From Pirellulales bacterium (GTDB lineage: Bacteria; Planctomycetota; Planctomycetia; Pirellulales; PALSA-1355), in contig JALHMI010000001.1 of NCBI GenBank assembly GCA_022844125.1, positions 370,581 to 434,580 of the forward strand: 64,000 bases of DNA, written 5' to 3'. Both the position numbers and the translations under genes were made by a program. The stretch's first letter is position 1, and each line of letters opens with the position of its first letter. The notes beneath the pieces are model-generated. The model searched no databases and was not told where the DNA came from. It worked only from the letters and a program-made list of their open reading frames with translations. Of the stretch, positions 51,971-53,920 are shown one piece after another.

Positions 51971-52927
51971 TTAGAAACCAGCGACCTTCGAGGCGTCGGT
52001 CTGTGCGCGGACGAACGCCAGATCGGTTTGGCTCAGCCGCGAGTAAGGAACCGTCGTGAACTTCCCGGTGTCCTTCAGCAGCCGCACGTGCGTCTTGCCA
52101 ACCACCACCAGGCGCGCCCGAACTTGGAACTCGCCCGTGTTATCTGACCACAACCGCATTCCGTCGGCCGCGTCGGTCTTCGGTTCGGCGGCCGCCATCG
52201 GACCGGTCGGTTCGCTGAACAGGTCTTCGACTTCCTTGCTGGGCTCGGCCGGCGTCGCCGGAGCTTCATTGGCCGCGGCCTTGTTACCGCTCGGGGCGTC
52301 CAGATCCTTGAACAGATCGTCGACCTCATCGGTCGGCTTGGCCGGGGCGGTTTCCGGCTCCTTGAACAGGTCTTCGACCTCGGCCGGCTCGGCGGGTTTC
52401 GTCTGCGGCTCGACCGGCGTCGTTTCCGGCTGGCTGAACAGGTCTTCCACCTCGGCCGAAGGGGCGGGGGCTGCAGGGGCCGGAGTGGGGGCCGGAGTCG
52501 GAGTGGGCCTCGTTGCCGGCGGCGTCACCGGCGCGGGCGCAGGCGTCGCCGGCGCCGGTTCGACAGGCGCTGGCGCGGGAGTCGGTTCAAACCGAGCCGG
52601 TTCCGGAGGCGCCGGCGGCATGTCGTCGTCCAGCGTCGGTTGCGGGGTTGATGGTTCGGTGCTCTCGATCGGCGCGGAGGGAACCTTGTCGGTCGTCACT
52701 TCGCAGCCCGCGCAATCGGCCGGCATGCTCGTCGAGCAGCCCGACTCTTCATAGACGACGCCACAATCGGCGGGACCGCAGCTCGATTCATAGCAACCCG
52801 AGCCATACACGGGGCCGCAATAGACCGGCTGGCAGTGTCCCCCATGGCGCCACCGAAAAGCGGAAGCCGAGTTGGCGACCATCATGACGGCCACGGCCCA
52901 AACGACGATTTTCTTTCCCTGCCGCAT
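51971..52927 (-). CDS. Secreted Cys- and Pro-rich protein with a C-terminal SHD1 domain
   Basis: A 318-residue protein. A signal peptide (KKIVVWAVAVMMVANSASAF) precedes a Cys-rich segment (about 10 Cys in 50 residues), then a Pro/Ala linker of about 140 residues holding four copies of an EVEDLF or EVDDLF repeat. The C-terminal 50 residues (LWSDNTGEFQVRARLVVVGK) match SHD1, a domain first described in yeast Sla1 and common in planctomycetes. The ATG is at 52925-52927. The structured RNA at 53157-53428 ends 230 bp upstream. Confidence 0.85.
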   Translation of the reverse strand: MRQGKKIVVWAVAVMMVANSASAFRWRHGGHCQPVYCGPVYGSGCYESSCGPADCGVVYEESGCSTSMPADCAGCEVTTDKVPSAPIESTEPSTPQPTLDDDMPPAPPEPARFEPTPAPAPVEPAPATPAPAPVTPPATRPTPTPAPTPAPAAPAPSAEVEDLFSQPETTPVEPQTKPAEPAEVEDLFKEPETAPAKPTDEVDDLFKDLDAPSGNKAAANEAPATPAEPSKEVEDLFSEPTGPMAAAEPKTDAADGMRLWSDNTGEFQVRARLVVVGKTHVRLLKDTGKFTTVPYSRLSQTDLAFVRAQTDASKVAGF

Positions 52928-53156
52928 CTGTTTGTCTCCTCGAACCGTCAGAAACGAGCTCGTTATCCCAAAATGAGCACTTATGCTAGCTTTGCCAGTT
53001 GCCCTTCGCAACTCTCTTGAGAGGAGTTTACATCGCGATTCGTGCGTCGGTGGATGCGAACAGCTTATGCCGGATGCTCCGATAGGTCCGGTGGCGCCGT
53101 GCTGGGCAATTCGGCTGCCGCACCCAGGTCGGATCTGGCCGGACGCCCCCAGGCGC

Positions 53157-53198
53157 AAAAGAAGAGCCGGCCGAAGTGTTTAGGGCTTCGACCGGCTC
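53157..53198 (-). terminator. Terminator of the structured RNA
   Basis: GAGCCGGTCGAAG (53186-53198) and CTTCGGCCGGCTC (53164-53176) form a 13-bp stem with one G-U-type mismatch and a 9-nt loop. It is followed by TTCTTTTG on the minus strand. Confidence 0.85.
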
Positions 53199-53292
53199 CA
53201 CTTAGAAAACGGGTTCAGAAACGTGGCTGTCTAACGCAGCCGAGCTCGAGGGGTGACCCATCGGCTCGGTCAGGCAGCCCGTCGGCTGCTCG

Positions 53293-53325
53293 TTAAACGA
53301 GCCACCTCTGTATACCACTAGACAT
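53293..53325 (-). CDS. 10-codon reading frame with a near-perfect ribosome-binding site
   Basis: ATG at 53323-53325 opens a frame MSSGIQRWLV ending in TAA. AAAGGAGGTGA lies 4 bp before the ATG (53330-53340), almost the full complement of the 16S rRNA tail. GGTGACCC (53327-53334) in this site is exactly complementary to GGGTCACC at 53252-53259 downstream, so the site can be masked. Translation is not proven. The peptide has no known relative; a leader or regulatory role is inferred. Confidence 0.45.
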   Translation of the reverse strand: MSSGIQRWLV

Positions 53326-53434
53326 AGGGTCACCTCCTTTCCAACCAAGGCCATCCCGCGGTTCCTGCCAGCCCTGACCGGCAGCGTCCCCGGGCCGTTG
53401 GTCCCGCCGGACCACGTTAGTCCAGCACGACTTC

Positions 53435-53464
53435 ATACTATTCAGCGGGCTTCGGCAAAATCAA
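53435..53464 (-). promoter_or_regulatory. Promoter of the structured RNA
   Basis: On the minus strand TTGATT (53459-53464), an 18-bp spacer and TAGTAT (53435-53440) fit a sigma-70 type promoter with 4/6 and 5/6 matches. Confidence 0.55.
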
Positions 53465-53665: not shown

Positions 53666-53920
53666 ATGGAATCGGACTTGATCGACCCCATTCCCATTGA
53701 AACAGAGGCCATCGCCGAGGCTGTGCTGGATTCAGCGTTCGCGGTGCACCGGGCACTCGGCCCAGGTCTGCTTGTCGAGTTGAAGGCGGTAGAGAAACAT
53801 TTGCCGCTTTACGAGGCACAACTACTGACCTGTTTGAAACTGACAGGACACCGGATCGGCCTATTGATCAACTTCAACGTGCCGCTGCTGAAGGACGGTA
53901 TTGAGCGAGTGGTCCTGTAA
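53666..53920 (+). pseudogene. GxxExxY-family protein with an internal deletion
   Basis: An 84-codon frame. Its first part (ETEAIAEAVLDSAFAVHRAL, then GPGLL) and last part (VELKAVEKHLPLYEAQLL, then LLINFNVPLLKDGIERVVL) match the ends of GxxExxY proteins, which are about 125 residues long. The two are joined directly at GPGLL-VELK, so about 40-50 central residues including the GxxExxY motif itself are gone, in frame. The PD-(D/E)xK-like core is therefore incomplete and the product is probably inactive. The ATG is at 53666. Confidence 0.8.

Follow-up and report, generated by a model that had tools for sequence, protein, structure and literature searches.

A small RNA gene upstream of an SHD1 gene

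The window, by which we mean the whole 64,000-nt stretch of DNA analyzed here, has a gene-free gap of about 740 bp between an 84-codon ORF (53666-53920, plus strand), which borders this gap and is perhaps a fragment or a pseudogene (presumably GxxExxY-like, from its look), and the gene for an SHD1 protein. The SHD1 ORF as listed (51971-53158, minus strand) opens at a TTG codon by the end of the terminator described below; the likelier start is an ATG near 52927. A sequence-only reading had placed in this gap, at 53157-53464 on the minus strand, a small structured transcript with a sigma-70 type promoter and a strong intrinsic terminator. Both the size of the gap and these coordinates proved correct, with the promoter at one end of the interval and the terminator T-tract at the other. 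The features of the locus are as follows:

53435-53464, minus strand: promoter, with -35 TTGATT (53464-53459), an 18-nt spacer and -10 TAGTAT (53440-53435); read from the sequence, conserved in relatives
53157-53428, minus strand: inferred transcript of about 270 nt, from promoter to terminator T-tract, supported by homologues
53405-53427, minus strand: 5' hairpin P1 with ACG in the loop; from folding, recurrent in relatives
53342-53404, minus strand: remainder of the 5' domain, with variable stem-loops lying between P1 and the Shine-Dalgarno (SD) sequence; from the MFE fold, sequence variable among relatives
53327-53340, minus strand: extended SD, AAAGGAGGUGACCC, a complement of almost the entire 16S rRNA 3' tail
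53293-53325, minus strand: mini-ORF ATG...TAA, predicted product MSSGIQRWLV*; start and stop conserved in all members tested (62/62 and 44/44)
53291-53305, minus strand: 5' strand of the long-range helix, formed by the ORF end and the stop codon; from covariation
53274-53289, minus strand: conserved hairpin GCAGCC-GACG-GGCUGC; near-invariant in close relatives, both-side changes in 5/6 pairs phylum-wide
53240-53269, minus strand: variable hairpin within the long-range helix; from the fold, different or missing in other members
53223-53236, minus strand: 3' strand of the long-range helix, CGTTAGACAGCCAC; from RNAalifold and covariation
53157-53198, minus strand: intrinsic terminator, a GC-rich stem followed by TTCTTTT; from the fold and conservation in relatives

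The transcript start is a candidate, placed from the position of the promoter. The promoter itself drew no call from a simple promoter scanner, because its 8/12 matches fall below the threshold of that program. Among the 91 relatives with a recognizable 5' hairpin, a promoter of the form TTG...A....T scoring at least 8/12 was found upstream of the hairpin in 70%, as compared to 6.6% in shuffled sequences, and the distance from promoter to hairpin loop was mostly 17-30 nt. Terminators (a stem of at least 7 bp followed by T4) were found downstream of the RNA in 70 of 103 members, against 1.3 expected from shuffles. Both signals are therefore not only present at the locus but kept in relatives. 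The RNA is predicted to fold with -146.6 kcal/mol (z = -4.88), and none of 100 dinucleotide shuffles was equally stable. The earlier description of six or more hairpins in series holds in part: there are about six stem-loops, but two of them sit inside the long-range helix.

Homologues occur throughout the Planctomycetota

A DNA search of relatives returned 17 clear homologues, all from the same order and with E values of 2e-5 or better (the best being 7.5e-59); the most conserved segment of the RNA is AAAGGAGGTGATCC - ATGTGTAGTGG..CCAGAGGTGGCTCGTCTGACGAG - CAGCCGACGGGCTG. A first covariance model (R1) gave 18 strong and about 26 weak matches in the order, and weak matches phylum-wide; on reading, most of the weak ones had the same plan and a few (L056, L068, L071) were junk. 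Since the first look scored only 8-12 candidates per genome, the lack of a match in many order and phylum genomes is not proof of absence. At E values up to 0.1, a second model (R2), built on 32 members, had matches in 101 genomes of the order (297 searched) and in 80 of the phylum (294 searched). Of 247 order genomes, 99 matched an exact, model-free pattern; the reversed-pattern control matched in 5 genomes or fewer, and roughly nine in ten of these order matches look like members, as judged from the printed matches. In the phylum-wide draw, the same pattern was matched in 23 of 294 genomes, part of these matches being members; the yield is partial because diverged members deviate from the pattern. 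From a scan of named genomes, at least 73 members were kept after reading among the 80 matches listed. Carriers named among them include Rhodopirellula rubra, R. maiorica, Bythopirellula polymerisocia and Thalassoglobus neptunius, whose genera are in culture. Homologues thus occur throughout the Pirellulales, and more diverged ones throughout the Planctomycetota. The RNA is usually single-copy; one genome (G180) has two identical copies of the core, on contigs C12 and C14 (probably L140 and L158).

In seven genomes outside the phylum the R2 model scored at most 18 bits, except for one match of 27 bits (L247), which reads as the reverse complement of a 16S 3' end. Those members whose sequence was read do not run on into 16S, and an antisense-to-16S artefact was rejected as their origin. 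A scan of IMG/VR for the RNA gave no match.

A long-range helix covaries

The ACG-loop hairpin, with a stem of at least 5 bp, was found upstream in 96 of 107 members, as compared to 28.6 in shuffles. In an alignment of 90 distinct sequences, the 22 pairs of the structural model were 88.1% formed and 17 of them showed changes on both sides; there were 227 cells with both-side changes where shuffles gave 73.4, and the pairs had a covariation score of 0.388, against 0.198 when shuffled and at most 0.060 with slid partners. This alignment was fitted to the model structure, so that these counts lean towards the model; the long-range helix was also recovered by RNAalifold on its own, on both alignments. 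The search for homologues and covariation that had been proposed as a check thus spoke for the RNA, with stems conserved in relatives and a strongly covarying long-range helix. A pairing between the SD and the ORF (helix 1) was without compensatory changes. A pseudoknot, AACGUGG/CCACGUU, is perfect in the window and in one other member (L002) but was seen in none of the others, and was discarded.

Judging from the conserved promoter and terminator and the covarying helix, the minus strand at 53157-53464 carries a real, stand-alone small RNA gene. Its origin by chance is excluded by conservation, covariation and the frame tests described below.

An extended Shine-Dalgarno sequence precedes a mini-ORF with conserved start and stop

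The 16S tail GGATCACCTCCTTTCT was taken from relatives, because the 16S gene of the window is mostly masked or incomplete. With this tail the SD can form 12 contiguous pairs and two more, in a duplex predicted at -24.5 kcal/mol, the most stable among the candidate sites scored within the 64-kb window. The pattern AAAGGAGGTGNYC has two matches in the whole genome, one of which is the SD of the RNA gene; the other (L253) lies inside a long open reading frame and was treated as a chance match. The Planctomycetes are one of the phyla with few SD genes (PMC5397173), and the strong SD of the RNA therefore stands out.

In the members tabulated, a start codon (ATG, GTG or TTG among members) lies 3-9 nt downstream of GGAGGTG; of two possible starts, we chose the one whose distance from GGAGGTG came closest to 5 nt. 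Members were collected with a search pattern free of start or stop demands, in which GGTGG and CGRCGGG are fixed. Read in the frame of the start codon, 62 of 62 unique members come to a stop at an equivalent position in the structure, as compared to 5 and 0 for the other two frames; the test was repeated with 44 further sequences, giving 44 of 44 against 3 and 1. The members are kin, so these counts are not independent events; yet both length (9-15 codons, varying by whole codons) and type of stop changed many times. Across both sets, start and stop were kept in 106 of 106 members tested. These counts argue that the start and stop codons of the mini-ORF are under selection, and its translation is predicted. 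The earlier view of a structured RNA is therefore retained as to its stand-alone structure, but not as to its being simply non-coding, since the extended SD and the mini-ORF are its most conserved part.

The stops in the first set (n = 62) were TAA (22), TGA (22) and TAG (18); all three being in use, sensing specific to one release factor is unlikely and was set aside. So was a sensor of a single amino acid, as no amino acid is universal among the mini-ORF peptides. Two further observations concern the reading frame. In one member (L150), a 1-nt deletion relative to close relatives shifts the frame, a TAA follows a few nucleotides on, and the place where the ORF ends is unchanged. Window-type members, the window itself excepted, carry ATGTGTAG in the start region, an overlapping GTG-TAG start-stop in another frame.

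Relationship to known RNAs and to neighboring genes

At the gathering thresholds of Rfam 15, no family was matched by the RNA in the window and relatives, where only tRNAs were found; this comparison had been named beforehand as one that might refute the reading. In line with the absence of tmRNA, SRP, RNase P and 6S signatures claimed earlier, ARAGORN made no tmRNA call and no Rfam model for 6S, SRP or RNase P matched. A permissive scan gave a single sub-threshold match, to the CC2171 sRNA of Alphaproteobacteria (RF01867), of 21.2 bits against a threshold of 75.

That the RNA is a divergent member of a described family, either CC2171 or the Rhodopirellula-1 motif, seems very unlikely to us. 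The best CC2171 match of the whole genome is indeed the RNA locus, and CC2171 is likewise a free-standing RNA with a terminator; moreover, CC2171-like loci also have GAAAGGAGGTGATCC and a short ORF, and in five of them GAAAGGAGGUGAUCC leads into a start codon and an ORF that is likewise short and is unannotated, where the window has GGAAAGGAGGUGACCC. The score, however, is far under the threshold, and the model of the planctomycete RNA gives CC2171-like loci 14-18 bits, a score roughly equalled by the best chance matches in unrelated genomes. The CC2171 ORF has 24-26 codons and opens MSHC..., whereas planctomycete ORFs open MSS, MCS or VEY, and CC2171-like loci pair it with an GACAAUGGA element before the terminator which was not seen in the planctomycete RNA. 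The fold is also different, with neither an ACG-loop 5' hairpin nor a CAGCCGRCGGGCUG hairpin seen in CC2171. The Rhodopirellula-1 motif, compared here by its description, was recorded from both Planctomycetes and Proteobacteria and is judged cis-regulatory and ambiguous as to its RNA status (Weinberg 2010, PMC2864571); occurrence in Planctomycetes is shared with our RNA, the cis-regulatory role and presence in Proteobacteria are not. Judged against Rfam 15 and the description of Rhodopirellula-1, the RNA gene appears to be previously uncatalogued. Scarcely credible is the other possibility, a leader or attenuator under translational control that acts on the downstream gene, here SHD1, even if a leader-peptide-like ORF with hairpins and a terminator after it has that appearance. 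About 0.2 kb separate the terminator from the SHD1 ATG, and in blastp comparisons of neighbors an SHD1 gene was downstream of the RNA in 3 of 20 and 4 of 93 loci, limited to the same family, with no neighbor gene family common to more than 9 of 93 loci. Downstream genes vary between families, and this lack of conserved synteny largely refutes a leader; of the two options left by the sequence-only reading, a free small RNA or an attenuating leader, the former stands.

SgrS and SR1 are dual-function or small-coding sRNAs. Like this class, which includes Pos19 of Rhodobacter (PMC5036791), the planctomycete RNA is a stand-alone sRNA carrying a small ORF, and conservation of both signals points to a promoter and a terminator of its own. 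It differs in its much shorter ORF, which is itself one strand of a conserved helix, its weakly conserved peptide, its extreme SD and its phylum-wide occurrence. Leader-peptide attenuators of the TnaC type have RNA helices ahead of a terminator and a short ORF whose translation competes with them; our RNA would do the same with its own short ORF, but it has no conserved downstream gene, and the type of its stop codon is free. By analogy it may also resemble 6S RNA and tmRNA, structured small RNAs acting on a core machine (polymerase or ribosome), to which it has no sequence or covariance-model match.

A model for ribosome engagement

The unusually strong SD and the selected start and stop suggest that the RNA probably engages the ribosome and is not plainly non-coding. 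We favor, and think probable, the view that this stand-alone, usually single-copy RNA gene of the Planctomycetota works by ribosome engagement, translation of the ORF and formation of the covarying helix being mutually exclusive. Transcription would run from the sigma-70-type promoter of the gene to its own terminator, as conservation of both supports. The SD, complementary in sequence to nearly the whole 16S 3' tail, would then recruit the 30S subunit, and a ribosome would start at ATG, GTG or TTG and end 9-15 codons on, at a fixed position of the fold. Because the helix, whose pairing is shown by covariation, takes one of its strands from the second half of the ORF, translation and folding should exclude each other. 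Ribosome traffic might thereby toggle the RNA between two states, and the supply of free ribosomes could be coupled either to some effect in trans or to how stable the RNA itself is; ribosome binding would in this way have a physiological effect. A more far-reaching version, possible but tentative, would make it a phylum-wide housekeeping RNA that captures the 30S subunit by full 16S-tail pairing, passes through an obligatory start-to-stop mini-cycle and reports ribosome availability or termination through the helix switch, the peptide being a by-product. We know of no RNA with such a logic of capture, mini-cycle and helix switch.

Two other accounts take up parts of the same evidence. The RNA could be a very small mRNA whose product, a micropeptide of 9-15 residues, is functional, the fold merely tuning translation; this would agree with the conserved start, stop and strong SD, and with the recurrence of [SR]Q(R)GG, in which Arg is encoded by CGA, CGG, AGA and AGG and the second Gly by all four Gly codons. 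The peptide, however, is weakly conserved and highly variable (MSSGIQRWLV, VEYVCTSRRGG.., LNDYHIRQWGGANR, MHQVRRWPR), the shared AGGTGG falls in differing frames between lineages, and RNA pairing covaries throughout the ORF. Moreover, GGTGG and CGRCGGG were set by the search pattern, so that conservation of the Gly-Gly codons is no evidence for a peptide, and we consider this account unlikely. Alternatively, the RNA could pair with the 16S tail and so titrate or park ribosomal subunits, much as 6S RNA does with RNA polymerase, translation being secondary. Its 16S complementarity does far exceed an ordinary SD, the site is the only real one of its kind in the genome, and the RNA is structured and usually single-copy; but in a pure decoy start and stop would both be dispensable, and their retention in every member tested makes this account quite unlikely.

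If the predicted engagement of the ribosome is real, it would give small RNAs a novel means of sensing or using translation, in a phylum of unusual cell biology and low SD use that appears to retain one near-complete complement of the 16S tail together with a selected mini-ORF. The mini-ORF also suggests that RNAs classed as non-coding be re-examined, CC2171 among them: with an extended SD and a short ORF, CC2171-like loci may work like the planctomycete RNA, and the CC2171 'sRNA' may encode a small protein or serve a dual function. Five such loci (L094-L098) lie on alphaproteobacterial plasmids, where GRAAGGAGGTGRTC is followed by the unannotated ORF of 24-26 codons (MSHC...).
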